From Bacteriovoracia bacterium (GTDB taxonomy: Bacteria > Bdellovibrionota > Bacteriovoracia > Bacteriovoracales > Bacteriovoracaceae): DNA of 64,000 bases. The notes beneath the pieces are model-generated. The model did no database searches, was not told the DNA's origin, and saw only the letters and a program-made list of their open reading frames with translations. The translations under genes and the position numbers were made by a program. This document shows positions 48,786 to 58,949 of the stretch, piece by piece. The stretch lies in contig JAUIIL010000001.1 of the NCBI GenBank assembly GCA_030431635.1, forward strand, positions 310,001 to 374,000, in the 5' to 3' direction. Within the stretch, counting starts at the first letter, position 1, and each line of letters starts with the position of its first letter.

Positions 48786-50456
48786 ATGAAAACTTTAAGT
48801 CTTCTCCTTATTCTGATTAAATCTACATTTGCTATTGATTTTCCAGAGGAAACGAAAGAGCATGTTGCAAGTTCAAAAAAAATCATGATTTCAAGTCAGG
48901 GAAAAGAGTCCTCTTTAGCCGGTTTAAAAATTTATCAACAAGGTGGAAACATAACTGATGTTTTTGTCGCAGTTTCTTTTGCTATTTCAGTAGAAAGACC
49001 ACAATCAACGGGACTTGGTGGGGGAGGGTTTGCTCTTTTGAAATTAAAGAATCAAAAAACCTTGGCCTATGATTTTAGAGAATCAGCTCCATCAAAGTTT
49101 CATGAAAAAATATTTCAAGATAAAAGAGGGAACGTTATTGAAAGTAAATCAAAAGATGGGCCATTTGCTGTTGGGGTTCCAGGACTTGTCAAAGGTCTTT
49201 GGGAAATTCATCAAAAACACGGAAAACTTCCTTGGGCATCATTATTAGTTCCTGCTATTGAAATGGCCAGTCAAGGCATTGAGGTTTATCCCCATCTTCA
49301 CGAAGCAATGAAAAGAAGACAAGAGGTTTTGAAAAAAGATCTAGAGACAAGAAAAATTTTTCTCAAGCCAGATGGATCTGTTTATAATGTTGGCGAAAAA
49401 CTTCTTCAATTAGAACTGGCCAGCACCTTAAGAAGAATAGCCACAAAAGGTTATAGGCCTCTTTATCATGGACGACTGTCTTTTCAAATAGCAGGTAGTG
49501 TTTCTGAGAAGGGTGGGGTCATGAGCATTGATGATCTTAAAAACTACCAAGTGAAATTGCGAAACCCTGTCAGTGATAAAATTTTTGGACATCAAATCAT
49601 CTCCATGCCTCCTCCTAGTTCTGGAGGAATTCATGTCATTCAAATCCTTAAACTTTTGGAAGGGGATAAAAAAATTAAATTTCATAAAAAGAATGAACAT
49701 TATTATGAACAGTTTATCAGGGCCATGGGGTTTGCTTTTCAAGATAGAGCAAAGTTTTTGGGAGATCCTGATTTTGTTAAAGTTGATAATGAAAAACTTA
49801 TTTCCAAAAAACACCTGGCTCCTTTTTATCTGGATCAAAAAAAGAGAACCCTTTCTAAGGGTATTATTCCTAAAGAATCGACCGAGACGACACATTTTAC
49901 CATTATGGATGGTGAGGGAAATGTGATTTCAAGTACTCAAACTATAAATGGATATTTCGGAGCAGGCTTTGTTGCTGGCAATACTGGTATTGTTTTAAAT
50001 AATGAGATGGATGATTTTAGCGCGAAGTCAGGAAATCTTAATATGTTTGGTGCCATTGGGGGAGATAAAAATAAAGTTGAAGCAGGAAAAAGGCCTTTAA
50101 GTAGCATGTCTCCTACTATTGTTTTAAAGGGAGATAAAGTTGTATTTGCTCTTGGAACTCCTAATGGAACAAGAATTATTACTTGTGTGGCCAATACTCT
50201 TCTTAATAAACTTGCCTTTCATATGAGCACAAAGGAGGCCGTTTATGCTCCTCGAATTCATTATCAGCTTTTACCAGATGAGGTTTTTTATGAGGAAGGA
50301 GCTTTGGAGAGTTCACTAATAAAAAAGTTAGAGAAAAAGGGATATAAATTTTCAAATAAACCAACAGGATGCAAAATCCAAGCGATAAGTTTTGAAAAAA
50401 ATATTCTTACAGGAGTGAGTGATCCCAGAGGAGCTGGGGCCAGCATAGGTCTTTAA
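48786..50456 (+). CDS. ggt: Gamma-glutamyltransferase
   Basis: 556 residues with a signal peptide (MKTLSLLLILIKSTFA), typical of periplasmic GGT. It cleaves gamma-glutamyl bonds of glutathione and related peptides and is made as a precursor that cuts itself. The N-terminal substrate motif RPQSTGLGGGGFALL and the family signature TTHFTIMDGEGNVISSTQT with TINGYFG are complete; the self-cleavage and catalytic Thr is Thr368, splitting it into large and small subunits. PLSSMSPTIV and the C-terminal DPRGAGASIGL also fit. Together with peptide transport genes it suggests glutathione or peptide use. It shares TTAA with the end of the convergent kinase gene. Confidence 0.93.
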   Translation: MKTLSLLLILIKSTFAIDFPEETKEHVASSKKIMISSQGKESSLAGLKIYQQGGNITDVFVAVSFAISVERPQSTGLGGGGFALLKLKNQKTLAYDFRESAPSKFHEKIFQDKRGNVIESKSKDGPFAVGVPGLVKGLWEIHQKHGKLPWASLLVPAIEMASQGIEVYPHLHEAMKRRQEVLKKDLETRKIFLKPDGSVYNVGEKLLQLELASTLRRIATKGYRPLYHGRLSFQIAGSVSEKGGVMSIDDLKNYQVKLRNPVSDKIFGHQIISMPPPSSGGIHVIQILKLLEGDKKIKFHKKNEHYYEQFIRAMGFAFQDRAKFLGDPDFVKVDNEKLISKKHLAPFYLDQKKRTLSKGIIPKESTETTHFTIMDGEGNVISSTQTINGYFGAGFVAGNTGIVLNNEMDDFSAKSGNLNMFGAIGGDKNKVEAGKRPLSSMSPTIVLKGDKVVFALGTPNGTRIITCVANTLLNKLAFHMSTKEAVYAPRIHYQLLPDEVFYEEGALESSLIKKLEKKGYKFSNKPTGCKIQAISFEKNILTGVSDPRGAGASIGL

Positions 50457-51271
50457 ACGGCTTTGGCAACAAAGGTAAAACTGAAAGTACTACCGATTCC
50501 TTCTTGGCTTTCAAACCAAATATTCCCGTTCATAGCTTCGACAATCCCTTTACATATTGAAAGACCAAGCCCTGTTCCTCCATACTCTCTTGCTATAGAA
50601 GCATCAACTTGAGAGAAAGATTGAAAAAGCTTGTTTTGTAATTTCTTAGGGATACCAATCCCTTTATCGATAACATCAATTTGAATGATATATTCATTAC
50701 TTTCTTTTTCTTTAAGTTTTGAAATGATTTTTACTTCTGCGTTTTTTGAGAACTTAATCGCATTACTTGCTAGGTTTGTAATGACCTGCTTAAGACGAGT
50801 AGGATCAGAGATTAACTGTGAAGGAATATCGCTCCCTGCCTCATATAGGAGTTGAGAGTTATTTTTTTTAGCACTTATTTGTAGGAGAGCAACCACTTTA
50901 TCAATTTCTTCATGGATATTTACTGGAGTTGATTCTAACTCAATCTTACCAGCTTCAAGCTTCGCAAAATCCAGCATATCGTTAAGTAAATTAAGTAGAG
51001 AGTGGGCAGAGCTTTGAATAAGTTCGACCAGTTTAATATTTTCCTCTTCTGTTAGGGAGTCTCTAAGAAGTTCACTGAGACCCAAAATTCCGTTGATAGG
51101 AGTTCTTACTTCATGAGACATAACTGAAAGAAATTTTGTCTTATTTTTTAATGCCAGCTCAATCATTTGTTTTTCTTTCTCAAGTGAAGAAAACTTATCC
51201 TTTTGCCATGATTTAAATAAATAGCCAAAGAAGAAACTCAAGCACGCAATAGCGTAGGGGGTTAACTCCAT
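50453..51271 (-). CDS. Sensor-less membrane histidine kinase
   Basis: 272 residues. One N-terminal hydrophobic segment (YAIACLSFFFGYLF) and a short coiled coil lead straight to the dimerisation domain with phosphoacceptor His53 in SHEVRTPINGILG. The ATPase domain has the N box LASNAIKFS, G1 DVIDKGIGIP, F box FQSFSQVD and G2 GGTGLGLSICKGIVEAMNG. There is no PAS, GAF or periplasmic sensor region and no receiver, so the signal must come through the membrane helix or a partner. No response regulator is adjacent. A 14-bp inverted repeat lies just upstream. Confidence 0.92.
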   Translation of the reverse strand: MELTPYAIACLSFFFGYLFKSWQKDKFSSLEKEKQMIELALKNKTKFLSVMSHEVRTPINGILGLSELLRDSLTEEENIKLVELIQSSAHSLLNLLNDMLDFAKLEAGKIELESTPVNIHEEIDKVVALLQISAKKNNSQLLYEAGSDIPSQLISDPTRLKQVITNLASNAIKFSKNAEVKIISKLKEKESNEYIIQIDVIDKGIGIPKKLQNKLFQSFSQVDASIAREYGGTGLGLSICKGIVEAMNGNIWFESQEGIGSTFSFTFVAKAV

Positions 51272-51369: not shown

Positions 51370-51594
51370 CTAAAGGTTAAGAAGATCATGTATTTTAATT
51401 TTAAGGCCCTGACAAATGTCGAGCAAGGTAAGGAGGCGAATATTAATTTTCCCCGACTCAATATCCTGGTAGTGTCTGTAGCTAATCTTATTTTTTTCAG
51501 CAAATTCAAGTTGTGTATGGCCTTTGGCCTTTCTTAGCTCTTTTAAACGATTACCTAACTTTTTGAGAAACCTTTTTTCTTTTTCCGAGTTCAT
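51370..51594 (-). CDS. Small Xre-family regulator
   Basis: 74 residues, almost entirely an HTH_3 domain (LGNRLKELRKAKGHTQLEFAEKNKISYRHYQDIESGKINIRLLTLLDICQGLKIKIHDLL). It has no effector or dimerisation extension. It is divergent from a second, similar Xre gene, with an 86-bp region full of short palindromes between them, so the pair probably controls itself and perhaps each other. The fold is clear, the target unknown. Confidence 0.9.
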   Translation of the reverse strand: MNSEKEKRFLKKLGNRLKELRKAKGHTQLEFAEKNKISYRHYQDIESGKINIRLLTLLDICQGLKIKIHDLLNL

Positions 51595-51680: not shown

Positions 51681-51914
51681 ATGCTAAAAAAAGATAAAAA
51701 CCAAAAATTTCTTCTTAAGCTCGGCCAAGAACTAAGAAAGATACGTCAAGAAAGAAACTGGAGCTTAGAAGAGACTGAAAATCAAGGTTGGAGCTCTTGG
51801 AGGCACTTACAAAAGATAGAGAAAGGAGGAAATTTTACAGTTTCAACTCTCTTAAAGCTCAGTAAACTCTACAACATTCCTATTAGTGATATCTTCAAAG
51901 ACTTATCAGACTAA
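51681..51914 (+). CDS. Small Xre-family regulator
   Basis: 77 residues, an HTH_3 domain (LGQELRKIRQERNWSLEETENQGWSSWRHLQKIEKGGNFTVSTLLKLSKLYNIPISDIF), similar in length and layout to the divergent Xre protein at 51370 and clearly a distant paralogue. The recognition helix region carries extra Trp residues (NWSL, GWSSWRH). No Shine-Dalgarno; a -10 lies 6 nt before the ATG. It ends 11 bases before the convergent giant gene. Confidence 0.88.
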   Translation: MLKKDKNQKFLLKLGQELRKIRQERNWSLEETENQGWSSWRHLQKIEKGGNFTVSTLLKLSKLYNIPISDIFKDLSD

Positions 51915-51924
51915 AGGACTCTGT

Positions 51925-54900
51925 TTAGTCAAAATGCTTGTTACATTTAGCTTGTTTTAAAACTTGCTTAAACTTCTTATACTCATTGAGTGCTGTTGAA
52001 GGTGAAGATAAAAATCTCAATCCCATTATTTTTTGGGCTTGAGTCATTAAGTAGTTTTTGTCAGCAATATGGGCCTTCATTCCAACGAGTGTGGCAAATA
52101 ACTTTTGGAAAAAAAGATATTCTGGCCTTAAAGAAATTCCCTTAAGTTCAACTTTCTCCATTGATTTAGAAAAAACTTCAATCGGGTCATTGCTTATAAG
52201 AGATTGTCTTTCTATCTCCTCCCTAAGGAGTTGAGATTGTTCTTCACTATCTATGATGAGGTACTCTTTTGCCATTTCAACAGCTTCTTCGATTTTTTTG
52301 AACTTAATGGCGCCAATAATAGACATGAAGCCACGAACTTTCTGTGGTTCAATAATAACTGATTGACCTAGATCGATATTGACAAGGTTGCCCTTCAAAA
52401 CGAGTAATCTTTTTTTGGCCAACTGGTTTTCTTCATGTGGATCGATATCTAGAATAACGTTTCCTCCTAGCTTTTCTGAAGGCTGAATGAAGGAAGTAAG
52501 CTGATTTAAAATCTCGTTGACTACGGCCTTAGCATAACTTTGTTTACTCCATCCTAAAAGTGATTTTTCTGGCAGCTGTCCCCAAGAATCTGCTTTAATA
52601 AATTCTTCGGCCATGACTCCATCAAATTGCCAGCCCTCAAGAGGAACTGGGACCTGAACATTAACTTTATTCCCAAAGATTTTAACTAAAAGCGGTCTAT
52701 CCATAATGGCATTATTATGGGCAATGTTCATTTCAAACTCTTTCTTAAATTGCATTTCTTCAGTAATAATTCTCTCTACTTCCTCTCTGAGAGCAGGTAA
52801 ATTTTCAATACGAAGAGTTGGATCTTGCATAATTAACTCAAGGGCCTGTTTAAGAAGTTCAAACTCCCTAAGAGTTTTCTCATAAATATACTCTCTGGCC
52901 AGTTTAATAACGATAACTCTTCCATCTTTCAAAGTTGCTGAATAGGCCAGTTTCAATGAGCCTGAGCCCAACTCATGGTTTAATGTCTTAATTTGATTAA
53001 ATTTGTCCTGAGGAAGTCTTTGTGAAATCCAATTCATCGCTCGTATTTTTTCTACTTCTTGGGCCTGCCCTTTAAATTTTTCTAAAACATCTTGATATTC
53101 TTGAGGAAGTTGAAAACCGTGACTCGCTATAATCTGAGCAAGTTTCGCAGCTGCAACTCCTCCATTCTCAACAAGGATTTTTAAAACTTGTGGGCCTTTT
53201 AAGTCTTGGCTTCCTTGGGCCAATAGTCCAGAGAACATACGAGAAATTTCTGATTCGTTGAGAACTTGAAAATAGATTTTTAAAACACTTCTAAGGTAGG
53301 GAGGCATGTCTTCGTCTGATAAGAGAATACGATTAGCTAGAATTTCTATTGCTTCCTTACTACTATTAACACCACTTTCTCCTACAAAAAGACCCCGAAA
53401 GACAAGGGCCTTCTCGAGAGTGTGGGTTTCTTGAAAAAACTCTTTGATTTCAGATAAAGTGAAGTAGTAGCCATTTTCTCTCATTGTCTTTTTTCTTTTA
53501 TCTTTACCAAAAAAAAGTTTTTTTACTTTTTCTTCTAAATCTTTTTCAAGTTTATCATCAAAGTTAGCTAAGTAGAGAGAGAAATGAACTCTCTCTACTG
53601 GAGTAAGTTTCCCTACATATTCTTCTAATATCTCTCCAAAGGCCTTGGAAATTTTATGATAAGGACTTTCCGTATTATAGGATTTGTACTTTTCAATAGC
53701 TTTAAGTTGCTCGAATGTGCTTTTGCGCGACTTTATATGCTCTTCAAGTAAACCATCTCGATGCTTACTTCCTTCAGGAAAAACTGCTGCTATTTCACCT
53801 GCTGGAGGATTCTCTAGTTTTTGATTCGCTTCATGTAAATCAAGAAGGTACTCTAGAGCAGTCTCTTTCGGGATTCCCATTTTGCCTGCTCTTTTAGCGA
53901 CATGATCCTCCCAAGCATTCTCTATTATGTGCCAAGCATTGATTAATCCAGTGGAATTTTTCAGATCGTCTAAAACTTCTTTGGTCCAGACAGCTTCAGC
54001 TTCTTTATAGGCCTTGTAGAGTTTGATATATAATCTGGCTTTCGTGATAAAATTCATTTTCACTTTTCCATATTTTTTTAAAACATATTGATAGGTTTCA
54101 AGTCTTTTATTGAGTGAGCGAATATTTTTTGTGAGCTCAATAACTTTCTTTCTTTTATGATGAGAGGATTTAATATAATCGGAAATTTCATTGTCAATAT
54201 TTTGTGACCATGGAGTTTGTCTTCTTAGATCTTGCAAGAAGTTAACTTTTTTGACGTTACCAACCTTCTTTTTCTGGGAGAGAGTTTTTGTATAAACCAA
54301 ACTAGAAAAATTTTTGATCTTTTGTGTGACGTATTGATTTAGCTTTGAATTTTCAATTTTCTTAAAAGCTTCATTCAGAATAATTAATTTATCAAGCTCT
54401 TTGAGAAGGCGTGTCGCTTTCCCAAAGCTATTCTGATAAGCGTTAGCTCTATTATAAAGATATTTACTAAAGAAGAGGATAATTTTGTTTATATTTTGAT
54501 TAGGCAAATCTTTTTGCCCATACCAAGCATCAAATTGAGTAATTTTAGCTACCAGCGAGTCAAAAAAGTATTCTCTGTATTTGACTCCAGTAATATTCAT
54601 CAATGTTTTTAAATTAGCTTTAAGGTAATTTTGAGAAACCTCGGGCCCAATTAAACGACCGTGAAGAAATAAAGAGTATAAAGCAGTATATTCCTGCATT
54701 TGCTCTTTTGTTTCTACTTTTTGAAGTGAATTCATAAGATAAGCATAAAAAAGCCTGATTTGTTCTTCCGATTTATCATTGCCAATGATTTGAGTGGATC
54801 TATTTTTTGCGAAAGTATATTCTTTTGAACTTTCAAGGAAGTTGGAAAGAATAAGAATGAGTGAATTGACAGGGTCTTTCTCTTCTATCATTTTTTTATA

Positions 54901-57900
54901 TTGAATTGGCCAAATAAACTTCATTGCCTGTTCAATAAGGGTTTCTCTGGAGTCATAGATTTTAAGACTTTTACTCTCTTTGTTAAAAATATAACGATAT
55001 GCTTCTGCAATATCTTCAAAGAGCAATTTTTCATCCTTGTTAAGCTGAGCTTCACGATTAAGAATTTGAGGATTTTTATTTTTAATCTTATTAAGAAAGC
55101 TTCTATTAAGATTGGCCTGAATTGAAGTGAATCCTTCTTTGGTGTTGATAAGATAAGAAACACCTTGGTGCTTGGCCAGAATATCACAGAGACTGATAGC
55201 TAATTCAAAGTTGCTTATAAAATTTTGATTGGTAGATGGATTTTTAAGGTAGTCAATAACCTCTTTTTTTCCAGGAACAAGAAAGCTTTCTAAAATTTTT
55301 TGCCCATTTGTAGGAGTTGAAGCACCATTATTGAATTTATCTATAAGTGCCTCTAAACTATCTTGTGAAAGAGAAGTGAGTTTAGAAGAATAATTAATCG
55401 TACTATGAAATAAAATTTTAGTTTTTAAATGAAGACTTCTTTTCATGTTAAAAAAAGATTCAGGGATTTTTTCATGAGGATTTTTATTTATCTTTTGAAC
55501 TATGTCATTAAACTCAATGAGGCCGTTAAGATAGTTTATTCTAATTTTTTCATCGATTTTTCCTTCTTTTAAAAGTTCATCTAGGCCTGATTCATAAACT
55601 TTTAATGAATTTTGAAATCTTTCAGCATGAAGATTGATTCTTCTTAACTCATCTGATTTAAGGTGAAGTTTAAAAACTTCGATTTTATCTTGATTGCTTA
55701 GTCTTTGAATATGTTGAGGGTGCAAGACAGGTATCGATGTTTTTTTGGGTTCTGCTGTATTTCCCTCAATGGATGACACGTAGGTCAGATTTTTATTGAA
55801 CTGCTCAAATAAAGTGAGAATATTCTCCTTTAGTATCGTTTGAGATTTGCGATAGGTTTCTATTAACTCTTCTTGAATTGGGTTAAAGTGAGGTAGATGA
55901 GAAGCTTCTTTCAGGTTTTCTTTAGTCAGAGTTTCTTCGTTAAACTCAGATGGCTTGATAGTCATCAAGACTTTTTCAATTCTTTTTAAATTGGCCTCTA
56001 AGTCACGCGGATAACGAGTTCTATCAATATCAAGTATTGCTTCCCGATGCTCTTCCCAGAAATCTCTGTTTATATTATTGGCAATTAATAAATCAAGAGT
56101 TTCTTCGATATTATAATGAGTTTTAACAAGGCTATTAAAAACAAAATTGACGCCATCAATTCCTGTCACTTTATTTAAATAGGTAATAAAATCAGTACTT
56201 AGTGCCGTTCTTTGCCAACGAGGGCTTCTTCCTATCCCATAGCTAAATTCTTGATTAAGTGGATTGAGTTCTGCATTTTTCCCAAGTCGCTCTCTGAGTT
56301 CTCCTGCGATATTTCTTTGGCTATCTTCAAGATTTTTTGAAAAAATTTTCTCTTTCGCGTTAACTGGATATTGGATTCGATGGACGAACTTATTCACTTC
56401 AATTTCAGGATGAGTAAGTAAGGTATTTGTTATTTCAGCAAAGACTTGGTTTAAAGCAAATATGACCTTACTGGATTCTGTTTTACTTATTCTAAGTACA
56501 TTTTGAATAAAATCATATGTAACATTTAAGTCCTTAGTTAGAAGAAGGTGTTTGTTACAAAGTTGAGCGTAAAAAGTTAGCATATGTTTTTTAGATTGAG
56601 AGTTTCTTAGAAAGCGCTCATGCAGAAGGTGTTCCTCTTCGCCTAATAGATCTATTATCCATTGTAGTTCTTGAGTTGATTTTGCTTGATGGGTTAGTTT
56701 AATAAGTGAACCAACAGCAACTCTTTCATCAATCTCTCGTACCCATTGTTGTATCTGGGCAAGATTAGCATGGAAATTGATATCAAAGGTTAGAAGCTCA
56801 ATCTGCTTATTGTTGATTTTTTGCTTTAACTCATTAATTGCCTTTTTGGGACTAGCAATTCTTTTGCTAGAAGTTAATTTTCCATGCTCTCCAACGCTTG
56901 TTTCAAATCGCTTGAAAGATTCTATAACGGAGTTCGTTTTTCTCAAATCGTTCACTTCGTCGAGTAAATAGCTATATTCATCTGTAATTCTCACGATTGT
57001 TTCTTGGTGCATTGATTTAACTTCTTCGTTTTGAATCATGAGATATTCTTCAAGGGCCTGAAGCTTTTGTCGAAAATCAAGAGACTCATAGGCTTCAGTT
57101 GACAAGTATTTTTCTAAGGTCACAACAGAGGTGCGAGATGTTTTTTCATAATGGCTTCTATCTAAACTTCCGTCTTTACTAATAGCTACTTCATTAAGAG
57201 ATATATTAAACTTTTCATAAGCTTCTCTTCTTTGGTTAAGAGTATTAATTAGATCTTCTAAGGCAGCAGAACGCAAAGAAGGCTTAGGGTGTTCATCCAA
57301 AAGACCAGCAATGAGGTGTCTGATTGATTTATTGGATTGGATTTTATCAAAAATTTTAAAAAGGATGTGAGCTGCTTTGGGATCATAACCAGCTTCATAG
57401 GCAACTCTAACCCCAAAGTCATCGGCCTTAAATTCCATGTAAACGCCTGTCGTTCTTTCTAATTTTTCAACGTCTCCATGAACAGCATGTCCTACCTCAT
57501 GGCCAATCACAATGGCCATAATTGAGCGGGAATGGGCATTGGCCTCTTGGGCCAGCTCTTCTCCTAGGTACTCTTTGGCCTTATCAGTATTTGTGATGAG
57601 ATCGAGTAAACCCTTAGTAGAGGCAATATGATAGGCCTTCACCTCTTGCAGATCATGGACTTTTGAAACCCAGGCATTCATTGTTTCTGTGGAAGAGAGA
57701 AATAATTCAAAAATGAGAGAGTCATCGACTTCTTTTGTTTTCTTGATATCCTCTAATATTTCTTTGAGTTCACGGTAGAGTTTTTTTGCTTTAAAAACTC
57801 CACTGGGAAGGGTTTTGAGTGTGTGGATTTTAGCATGCTCTAGCTTTTCTTTTACAACTTCTTTACCAAGTTTAGACTTTAAAAGATCTGATTTTTGAGC

Positions 57901-57954
57901 AAACAGTTGAAGTGAGAAAAGGAAAAATAAGAAGAGAGATTTTTTGAACAGCAA
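51925..57954 (-). CDS. Giant exported M48-like metalloprotease fused to ABC1/UbiB-like kinase domain
   Basis: 2009 residues. The start is TTG 57954 with AAGGA seven bases upstream; a signal peptide follows (LFKKSLFLFFLFSLQLFAQ). Residues 140-200 have an M48-type site: IGHEVGHAVHGD (His152, Glu153, His156) and MEFKADDFGVRVAYEAGYDPKAA with third ligand Glu174. About 1300 residues of charged helices follow. Near 1603-1850 lies an ABC1/UbiB-like atypical kinase: KLAQIIASHGFQLPQEYQDVLEK (the family KxGQ region, here KLAQ), a Gly-rich loop LGSGSLKLAYSA near 1663, the strand Lys in VIVIKLAR, an EEMQFKKEFEMNIAHN helix, DIDPHEENQ near 1835 (UbiB: DPHPGN) and NIDLGQS for the DFG motif. I know of no such fusion. 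Export of an ATP-using domain is puzzling. Confidence 0.8.
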   Translation of the reverse strand: MLFKKSLFLFFLFSLQLFAQKSDLLKSKLGKEVVKEKLEHAKIHTLKTLPSGVFKAKKLYRELKEILEDIKKTKEVDDSLIFELFLSSTETMNAWVSKVHDLQEVKAYHIASTKGLLDLITNTDKAKEYLGEELAQEANAHSRSIMAIVIGHEVGHAVHGDVEKLERTTGVYMEFKADDFGVRVAYEAGYDPKAAHILFKIFDKIQSNKSIRHLIAGLLDEHPKPSLRSAALEDLINTLNQRREAYEKFNISLNEVAISKDGSLDRSHYEKTSRTSVVTLEKYLSTEAYESLDFRQKLQALEEYLMIQNEEVKSMHQETIVRITDEYSYLLDEVNDLRKTNSVIESFKRFETSVGEHGKLTSSKRIASPKKAINELKQKINNKQIELLTFDINFHANLAQIQQWVREIDERVAVGSLIKLTHQAKSTQELQWIIDLLGEEEHLLHERFLRNSQSKKHMLTFYAQLCNKHLLLTKDLNVTYDFIQNVLRISKTESSKVIFALNQVFAEITNTLLTHPEIEVNKFVHRIQYPVNAKEKIFSKNLEDSQRNIAGELRERLGKNAELNPLNQEFSYGIGRSPRWQRTALSTDFITYLNKVTGIDGVNFVFNSLVKTHYNIEETLDLLIANNINRDFWEEHREAILDIDRTRYPRDLEANLKRIEKVLMTIKPSEFNEETLTKENLKEASHLPHFNPIQEELIETYRKSQTILKENILTLFEQFNKNLTYVSSIEGNTAEPKKTSIPVLHPQHIQRLSNQDKIEVFKLHLKSDELRRINLHAERFQNSLKVYESGLDELLKEGKIDEKIRINYLNGLIEFNDIVQKINKNPHEKIPESFFNMKRSLHLKTKILFHSTINYSSKLTSLSQDSLEALIDKFNNGASTPTNGQKILESFLVPGKKEVIDYLKNPSTNQNFISNFELAISLCDILAKHQGVSYLINTKEGFTSIQANLNRSFLNKIKNKNPQILNREAQLNKDEKLLFEDIAEAYRYIFNKESKSLKIYDSRETLIEQAMKFIWPIQYKKMIEEKDPVNSLILILSNFLESSKEYTFAKNRSTQIIGNDKSEEQIRLFYAYLMNSLQKVETKEQMQEYTALYSLFLHGRLIGPEVSQNYLKANLKTLMNITGVKYREYFFDSLVAKITQFDAWYGQKDLPNQNINKIILFFSKYLYNRANAYQNSFGKATRLLKELDKLIILNEAFKKIENSKLNQYVTQKIKNFSSLVYTKTLSQKKKVGNVKKVNFLQDLRRQTPWSQNIDNEISDYIKSSHHKRKKVIELTKNIRSLNKRLETYQYVLKKYGKVKMNFITKARLYIKLYKAYKEAEAVWTKEVLDDLKNSTGLINAWHIIENAWEDHVAKRAGKMGIPKETALEYLLDLHEANQKLENPPAGEIAAVFPEGSKHRDGLLEEHIKSRKSTFEQLKAIEKYKSYNTESPYHKISKAFGEILEEYVGKLTPVERVHFSLYLANFDDKLEKDLEEKVKKLFFGKDKRKKTMRENGYYFTLSEIKEFFQETHTLEKALVFRGLFVGESGVNSSKEAIEILANRILLSDEDMPPYLRSVLKIYFQVLNESEISRMFSGLLAQGSQDLKGPQVLKILVENGGVAAAKLAQIIASHGFQLPQEYQDVLEKFKGQAQEVEKIRAMNWISQRLPQDKFNQIKTLNHELGSGSLKLAYSATLKDGRVIVIKLAREYIYEKTLREFELLKQALELIMQDPTLRIENLPALREEVERIITEEMQFKKEFEMNIAHNNAIMDRPLLVKIFGNKVNVQVPVPLEGWQFDGVMAEEFIKADSWGQLPEKSLLGWSKQSYAKAVVNEILNQLTSFIQPSEKLGGNVILDIDPHEENQLAKKRLLVLKGNLVNIDLGQSVIIEPQKVRGFMSIIGAIKFKKIEEAVEMAKEYLIIDSEEQSQLLREEIERQSLISNDPIEVFSKSMEKVELKGISLRPEYLFFQKLFATLVGMKAHIADKNYLMTQAQKIMGLRFLSSPSTALNEYKKFKQVLKQAKCNKHFD

Positions 57955-58085
57955 GAAGCATTCCTTCTTTTATAAGTTTCAAAAGAAACTATTAAAGAGG
58001 GAGTGATTTGTAGAGATAAAAAATAACGCAGTGTAATATTTTCTTTTATGGTCAATCTAACTATTTGAAATTACTATGCTATGAT

Positions 58086-58949
58086 TTAATCCCAGTTATT
58101 CTCTTCCCATAAGGGAAGTTGTCTATCATCTTTTTGGAAGAGAGTCTTAACCTCTGGAATCCAATGTGAAACATCTTGGAAAAGAGAGTGTACTCCATTA
58201 TCGAGTCTCTTTTCAAAACCATCGACAGGATTTTGATAAACTTCTTCTACCCAACGATACATCTTATCCGGATCCCAAAAAAAGATTTCTCTTCCTTCTT
58301 CTTCTGAGTTGGCCCAGGGATTATAAGTGAGCATCAACTTAAAAAAATTCACTTTCCTCTCCTGAATAGGCATGCCTAAGTATTTCAGAGGGATTTTTAT
58401 TTGATAACTCCAGGCTTCTTTGAGCTTAGAATTCATCAGTCCTGCCAATTGTAAAAAACTGGCCCCGAAGGCACTACAGCCAGAACCTTCTTTGAACAAA
58501 GGTCTATTGTACAGCCCATAATACTTATAAAGTCTTTGCTCTTTATATTCCTGATAGTAGTTATAGAGAAGTTCAAGAACTTCTTGAGAGATCTGAAAGC
58601 AAACGGAGTTAATTCTATCACCTTTTTTTTGATATTCTTTAATCTCATCGAGCATCTCTTCTTTAGTTTCAAGGTGACCTTTAAAACTATGGAAAACAAT
58701 TCCCATCCCAATGTGTTTTTTAAAAAGAAGTTTTTTCGCATTCAAGTTCGCCGCAACCATTCCTGTGAGAACATCTATCTTTTCTCCCGATGTAAGGGTT
58801 CCTTTTAACTCAATATTTACATGTCCCATAAAACGAGGTTTAAAAGCGAGATAGTTTTTAAGAATGGTGCGAGAAAGAGCTGTTGCGCTACTCCAGTTAA
58901 GGCCAAAAGGGGATTTAATAAAATAGAGTTTGAGAATATTTTCAGTCAT
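58086..58949 (-). CDS. Unknown protein, possibly permuted papain-like
   Basis: 287 residues without a signal peptide. FMGHVNIELKG near 40 followed much later by GSGCSAFGASFLQLAGL (Cys near 162) gives a His-then-Cys order, as in permuted NlpC/P60 or YiiX-like hydrolases. HIGMGIVFHSFKGHL between them holds further His. The C-terminal part (NPWANSEEEGREIFFWDPDKMYRWVEEVYQNP) is Trp-rich. I am not confident of the family. It is upstream of and divergent from the OPT transporter gene. Confidence 0.5.
   Translation of the reverse strand: MTENILKLYFIKSPFGLNWSSATALSRTILKNYLAFKPRFMGHVNIELKGTLTSGEKIDVLTGMVAANLNAKKLLFKKHIGMGIVFHSFKGHLETKEEMLDEIKEYQKKGDRINSVCFQISQEVLELLYNYYQEYKEQRLYKYYGLYNRPLFKEGSGCSAFGASFLQLAGLMNSKLKEAWSYQIKIPLKYLGMPIQERKVNFFKLMLTYNPWANSEEEGREIFFWDPDKMYRWVEEVYQNPVDGFEKRLDNGVHSLFQDVSHWIPEVKTLFQKDDRQLPLWEENNWD

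Follow-up and report, generated by a model that had tools for sequence, protein, structure and literature searches.

Giant exported proteins of Bdellovibrionota appear to join a BepA-like M48 protease to a UbiB/ABC1-type kinase domain with variable catalytic lysines

Proteins of the UbiB/ABC1 family (AarF, COQ8, ADCK; Pfam PF03109) have long been puzzling, as it is unclear what their own substrate is. Ordinary members comprise about 450-600 amino acids (aa), keep the lysine of strand beta3 and carry Gly or Ala at position 55. In the eukaryotic kinase WNK1, the catalytic lysine has moved from beta3 to the glycine-loop position 55 (K233) (PMC4718504, PMC1821047), and the choline kinase/FadE subfamilies (CAK) pair Arg72 with Asn55 (PMC1821047). 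BepA in turn is built as a soluble exported M48 protease followed by a helical substrate-binding part, and its HPx4R plug, which marks the M48 family, regulates the enzyme (PMC7950410). It has about 490 aa, TPR repeats and no kinase domain. Here, we analyse a gene on the minus strand of a window of 64,000 nucleotides from a Bacteriovoracia bacterium (assembly GCA_030431635.1, contig JAUIIL010000001.1, positions 310,001 to 374,000), whose product is predicted to combine an export signal, a BepA-like M48 protease and a UbiB/ABC1 kinase-like domain. The protein is one of a family of giant proteins (giants) that is scattered through Bdellovibrionota and apparently has not been described so far; we found no paper on an M48-ABC1 fusion in the open-access literature searched.

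The gene's single frame (51925-57954) has no internal stop over 2009 codons, and the longest open run among competing frames is 93 codons. The GC content at codon positions 1/2/3 (0.466/0.279/0.286) argues that the frame is coding. A Pfam scan of the protein matched only two domains, i.e., M48 (PF01435) with 37 bits (curated cut-off 20.3) and ABC1 with 35.5 bits (curated cut-off 22.9). The N-terminus (LLFKKSLFLFFLFSLQLFA followed by QKSD) is predicted to be a typical Sec signal; here and in all relatives, signals were judged by inspection and hydropathy and not scored by a dedicated predictor. No membrane segment beyond the signal was found by hydropathy. The predicted layout is signal peptide, M48 site, uncharacterised middle, family-specific pre-kinase module and C-terminal ABC1 domain. 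It bears out what a sequence-only reading of this DNA had proposed, namely one exported 2009-residue frame with a complete HExxH plus ExxxD protease site and an ABC1-type core with Gly-rich loop, strand lysine, DPHEEN and IDLG motifs.

The same reading knew of no protein with both domains, but the fusion is not a one-off. Comparison of the window protein with relatives gave three further giants, two of them from its own genome and one from a different family of the phylum, and a contig scan with a 4-row alignment recovered just two; a profile search with the kinase module added many long open reading frames (ORFs) across the phylum. Nearly all of 33 long ORFs examined have the same order of a signal peptide, an HExxH motif (in most cases around residue 120-190), an uncharacterised stretch of about 900-1,000 residues and a kinase. 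For the census, we used a profile of the 250 residues preceding the glycine loop, which is absent from ordinary UbiB proteins save for the KxGQ end, and one genome per species, with many fragmented assemblies among them. This resulted in 49 giants (E <2e-14) in 35/369 Bdellovibrionota genomes from 15/29 families. Their lengths are mostly 1,400-3,350 aa, and all exceed 1,000 aa except two copies at contig edges. Below the threshold, nearly all matches are proteins of UbiB length (450-630 aa) that align at the KxGQ end; the status of two more long frames (1,215 and 1,147 aa) is uncertain. The genome of the window itself encodes four giants (open frames of 2014, 1679, 1641 and 1634 aa). Outside the phylum, a search of a handful of phyla (136, 251 and 10 genomes from three other phyla plus 20 single genomes of other groups) revealed no giant but only UbiB-length ORFs.

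Both domains travel together. The pairwise distances of the M48 and kinase parts correlate (Mantel r=0.62, permutation p=0.0002, n=34 members), and for 24/34 members the closest neighbour by M48 is also one of the three closest by kinase, compared to 3.1 expected. In a FastTree phylogeny of 52 kinase sequences, in which some deep internal nodes are weakly supported, the giants split from five UbiB proteins with support 0.98. Among 28 members, Pfam matched ABC1 in 22 and M48 in 18. We are thus nearly certain that a single polypeptide with export signal, BepA-like M48 domain, long linker and UbiB/ABC1 kinase-like domain, as predicted from sequence, is inherited as a unit across Bdellovibrionota. 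That an error in sequencing or assembly fused two genes, or that the gene is decaying, is refuted for the family and has next to no chance of being true: the architecture is repeated across all those genomes and families, the window gene shows no frame break, and catalytic residues are conserved at about 15-30% identity among giants. While nothing speaks for such an artefact in the window gene, breaks within single assemblies do occur. In one relative (L086:1273-7525), the frames of an M48 part (958 aa) and of a kinase part (1131 aa) adjoin each other at a stretch of eight T, apparently a single gene that is interrupted in this assembly.

With regard to the protease, the M48 family profile matches only M48 structures in the PDB, i.e., Geobacter 3c37 (3.5e-24), E. 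coli BepA (4e-15) and, weakly, HtpX. The window protein carries HExxH (H152, H156), the glutamate E174 and the plug H222-P223...R228, and shares with BepA and 3c37 the zinc ligands, the HPx4R plug, the signal peptide and a presumably helical part behind the protease. In contrast to BepA, no TPR match was found by Pfam in the 28 members, and the long middle region of the window protein matches no Pfam model. This region aligns to relative L049 across much of its length. The sequence-only reading had described about 1300 residues of helices; the extent is roughly right (residues 241-1560), and the stretch, poor in Gly and Pro, is presumably helical. HExxH is retained in 30/36 family members with a readable N-terminal region. 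Its invariance in our 20-row M48 alignment is due to the row choice, since rows were picked among members having the motif.

ABC1 proteins are normally supplied with cytosolic or matrix ATP. One could thus suppose that the Sec-like signal, judged by hydropathy, is misleading and the kinase cytoplasmic as in UbiB. We consider this very unlikely, given that about 27 of the 29 relatives possessing an N-terminus show export-like starts, that most members have very few cysteines, and that no second membrane segment is present to bring the kinase back into the cytoplasm.

When compared to the PDB, the kinase family profile matches only UbiB/ABC1 chains (1.8e-19 to 1.8e-14; 5yjz at 1.8e-19), with COQ8A/B structures at about 1e-18 to 1e-16. 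The giants share with UbiB the KxGQ-type N-terminal extension, the ABC1 core, the Asp-His-Asn catalytic loop and the DFG aspartate. Among the first 33 members, the catalytic Asp is found in 32, His in 33, Asn in 31 and the DFG Asp in 33, and the Gln and Lys of KxGQ in 33 and 27, respectively. The window protein has KLAQ (G to A) at this site, together with K1684, D1838-H1840-N1843 and D1861. Its nucleotide loop reads GSGSLK instead of being Ala-rich, which does not bar UbiB membership because ordinary UbiB proteins (L098-L100) also have Gly-containing loops. Gly at position 52 is the change that switches on ADCK3 (PMC4718504); it is not unique to giants, as an ordinary UbiB protein from another phylum (L100) has it too. 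What sets the giants apart from UbiB is that the domain ends an exported giant, follows its own pre-kinase module and has lost the beta3 lysine in most members. A single-sequence PDB search gave nothing useful, and a plasmid search matched only ordinary AarF/ABC1 genes of Rhodococcus, covering residues 1576-1750.

The catalytic lysine was then followed through the alignment with the PDB chains. The family's SxSIK lies opposite UbiB SASIGQ, i.e., its lysine falls on the UbiB glycine (PKA Gly55, WNK1 Lys233), while the UbiB beta3 lysine faces a hydrophobic residue. We tallied the alignment table of 48 giant kinases, where at 15-20% identity single-residue calls are uncertain in the most divergent members and beta3 calls especially so in members with long loop insertions. 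Both lysines occur in 11 giants, only the beta3 lysine in 2, only the position-55 lysine in 15, Asn55 with a beta3 Arg in 7, Phe55 with Arg in 1, and none of these in 12. That is, merely 13/48 kinases retain the beta3 lysine. The WNK-type placement (15/48) includes two paralogues in the window's genome, whereas the window protein retains both K1668 and K1684. This relocated or doubled lysine, as well as the KxGQ-type motif and a C-terminal cysteine (see below), had been overlooked by the earlier reading. The likeness to WNK, with the placement read from the alignment, is convergent only, since the giants' domain is UbiB-family, bacterial and exported. The same holds for the seven members that share Arg(beta3) plus Asn55 with choline kinase/FadE, a type to which the window protein does not belong; kinship is not implied. 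CAK proteins also change the DFG Gly to Glu, a covariation not seen in giants. Judged by these alignments, WNK-like and choline-kinase-like replacements are both found within one UbiB-derived family, for which we found no report.

The two-lysine state is found on the earliest branches of the tree (the window protein with L049; L073) and reappears in later clades. A two-lysine ancestor is thus plausible, with deep nodes weakly supported, and the window protein may plausibly represent an ancestral intermediate with both lysines. Several of the 12 kinases without Lys or Arg, in which Asn or His is also changed, are probably dead. Of 11 members whose kinase lacks both lysines and the beta3 Arg, 10 retain HExxH, i.e., the protease seems to outlast kinase decay. 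In the three paralogues from the window's genome (L013:4187-9100, L014:6383-11260, L064:3479-8491), intact and degenerate domains, judged by their motifs, complement each other: two have WNK-like kinases and have lost HExxH, while in the third HELEH is intact and the lysine positions are taken by Asn55 and Thr. Other genomes of the same family encode ABC1 proteins of 678 and 804 aa (L016:4687-6720, L017:3159-5570) that have a signal-like start and classic AAASVGQ loops and possibly form a smaller group of their own among exported UbiB proteins.

As the two domains are constantly paired and the protease seems to outlast the decay of the kinase, we infer that the kinase controls the protease. 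We thus tentatively read the giants as extracytoplasmic BepA-like metalloproteases under the control of a UbiB-type nucleotide-binding/kinase domain, a function that we hold for quite possible but short of probable. The giant would act as an extracytoplasmic, most likely periplasmic, protease on clients that are large or associated with the envelope. Its M48 domain would cut misfolded or foreign proteins, the long middle arm would bind the client or a partner, and the ABC1 domain would bind nucleotide, possibly lipid as is thought for UbiB, and act as a switch of the protease or of the complex as a whole. Many members would probably be competent kinases via one of three lysine/arginine arrangements; others would be pseudokinases that probably only sense or scaffold.

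Several observations weigh against this proposal. HExxH is gone with the kinase domain retained in 6/36 members, and five of the longest relatives (L065, L072, L089, L095, L096; 2,100-3,350 aa) show no recognisable M48 domain while retaining the pre-kinase and kinase modules. The kinase can thus occur in giants without the protease, and proteolysis is not the sole function. Furthermore, an exported kinase depends on ATP being present beyond the cytoplasm. No pathway is indicated by a conserved neighbour either; the sole recurring group in the neighbourhood comparison comprises three ORFs, one of them the adjacent histidine kinase. Structure predictions from shallow alignments provide no confident structure (mean pLDDT 37.5 for the M48 region, 49.5 for the kinase module). 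A Foldseek search with the kinase model lists UbiB structures among its top matches at E ~0.4, which we did not use as evidence.

The protease's nearest solved relatives, 3c37 and BepA, and the latter's body plan would also fit envelope quality control, i.e., a BepA-type factor for the assembly of outer-membrane proteins or LPS transport, with ABC1 as a non-catalytic scaffold or lipid-binding module. The 12/48 kinases lacking a lysine at both positions and the beta3 Arg, several with altered Asn or His, agree with such a role. Yet the Lys or Arg of 36/48 is arranged in a way known to work, and Asp and DFG-Asp are almost always kept; moreover, giants occur in merely 9% of genomes, unlike housekeeping factors, and in four divergent copies within one genome. 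We therefore rate this alternative as rather unlikely.

The ATP supply leads to another alternative, an effector acting on prey or competitor cells, i.e., a secreted protease-kinase powered by the victim's ATP, which would be available inside a lysed or invaded cell. The sequence-only reading had named prey ATP as an example that would suit a predator. The signal peptide, the predators within the phylum, and the size, divergence, multiple copies and patchy distribution of the giants are in line with it, but we found no evidence for such a link. Neither secretion nor immunity genes are conserved in the neighbourhood of the giants, and PADLOC returned no match. In genus g71 (24 genomes, many of them single-contig with 3-4 Mb; presumably Bdellovibrio), the census profile picks up proteins of UbiB length (559-576 aa) and no giant, which weakens the idea. 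We judge it quite improbable.

A further family trait is found at the C-terminus. Among giants with a complete C-terminus, 37/43 have a cysteine within the last 25 residues, compared to 1.8 expected from their own composition, while any other 25-residue block back to 300 from the end has cysteines in at most two members. The pattern was noticed post hoc, though with an excess far larger than multiple looks could reasonably account for. In 78%, the position +4 from the cysteine is hydrophobic. Giants are mostly Cys-poor and the tail cysteine is the sole one in several (e.g., L048, L057, L063, L089), such that any bond it makes there must link it to another molecule. The cysteine probably forms an intermolecular disulfide or anchoring bond. 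A CaaX box was rejected, as the cysteine lies 3-24 residues from the end, and a MYXO-CTERM-type sorting signal was dropped since no C-terminal membrane segment is present.

Coordinates of all features are listed in Table 1. A promoter scan for the giant gene remained at chance level. The protein encoded upstream on the same strand (287 aa, 58086-58949, minus) has no Pfam match and no counterpart beside other giants. The giant gene is separated from the histidine kinase gene (50453-51271) by two divergent ORFs that look XRE/HTH-like by eye (74 aa, 51370-51594, minus; 77 aa, 51681-51914, plus), whose similar sequences suggest a duplicated regulator.

Table 1. Features of the giant gene and its product (window positions; residues of the 2009-residue protein).
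Feature	Position	Strand	Basis or remark
Whole gene	51925-57954	minus	2009 codons, TTG start, single uninterrupted frame
Shine-Dalgarno AAGAAGGA	57962-57969	minus	TTG start seven bases downstream
Signal peptide (predicted), residues 1-19 (LLFKKSLFLFFLFSLQLFA, then QKSD)	57898-57954	minus	inspection and hydropathy
M48 metallopeptidase domain, ~residues 86-240	57235-57699	minus	Pfam; family profile matches 3c37 and BepA structures
HEVGH zinc-binding motif, residues 152-156	57487-57501	minus	motif reading
EFKAD, residues 174-178: third zinc ligand E174, plus D178	57421-57435	minus	motif reading
HPKPSLR, residues 222-228, HPx4R active-site plug	57271-57291	minus	motif as in PMC7950410
Middle region, residues 241-1400, presumably helical	53755-57234	minus	no Pfam match; ~1,160 residues
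Pre-kinase module, residues 1402-1600, family-specific	53155-53751	minus	ordinary UbiB match only the KxGQ end
KLAQ, residues 1604-1607, equivalent of ABC1/UbiB KxGQ	53134-53145	minus	alignment
Nucleotide-binding loop GSGSLK, residues 1663-1668, extra lysine K1668 (Gly55/WNK1 K233 position)	52951-52968	minus	alignment
Canonical beta3 lysine K1684 (in VIVIK)	52903-52905	minus	alignment
EMQFKKE, residues 1733-1739, equivalent of UbiB ExD motif and alphaC glutamate	52738-52758	minus	alignment
Catalytic loop DIDPHEEN, residues 1836-1843	52426-52449	minus	alignment
NIDLGQ, residues 1859-1864, DFG equivalent	52363-52380	minus	alignment
Conserved cysteine C2004 in CNKHF	51931-51945	minus	family comparison of C-termini

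Taken as a whole, the giants could be phylum-specific extracytoplasmic kinase-proteases, in which WNK- and choline-kinase-style replacements arose from a two-lysine ancestor and a nucleotide-gated metalloprotease is tethered by its C-terminal cysteine; we put this forward as a doubtful proposal. The cysteine would suggest an undescribed tethering or cross-linking step in Bdellovibrionota. The family holds Lys72, two-lysine, Lys55, Arg72/Asn55 and probably dead sites together and, because all these states occur in one family, a comparison of relatives can serve to test in which order the catalytic lysine was relocated. Finally, a UbiB-type domain that is physically joined to an M48 protease gains a testable partner and output.

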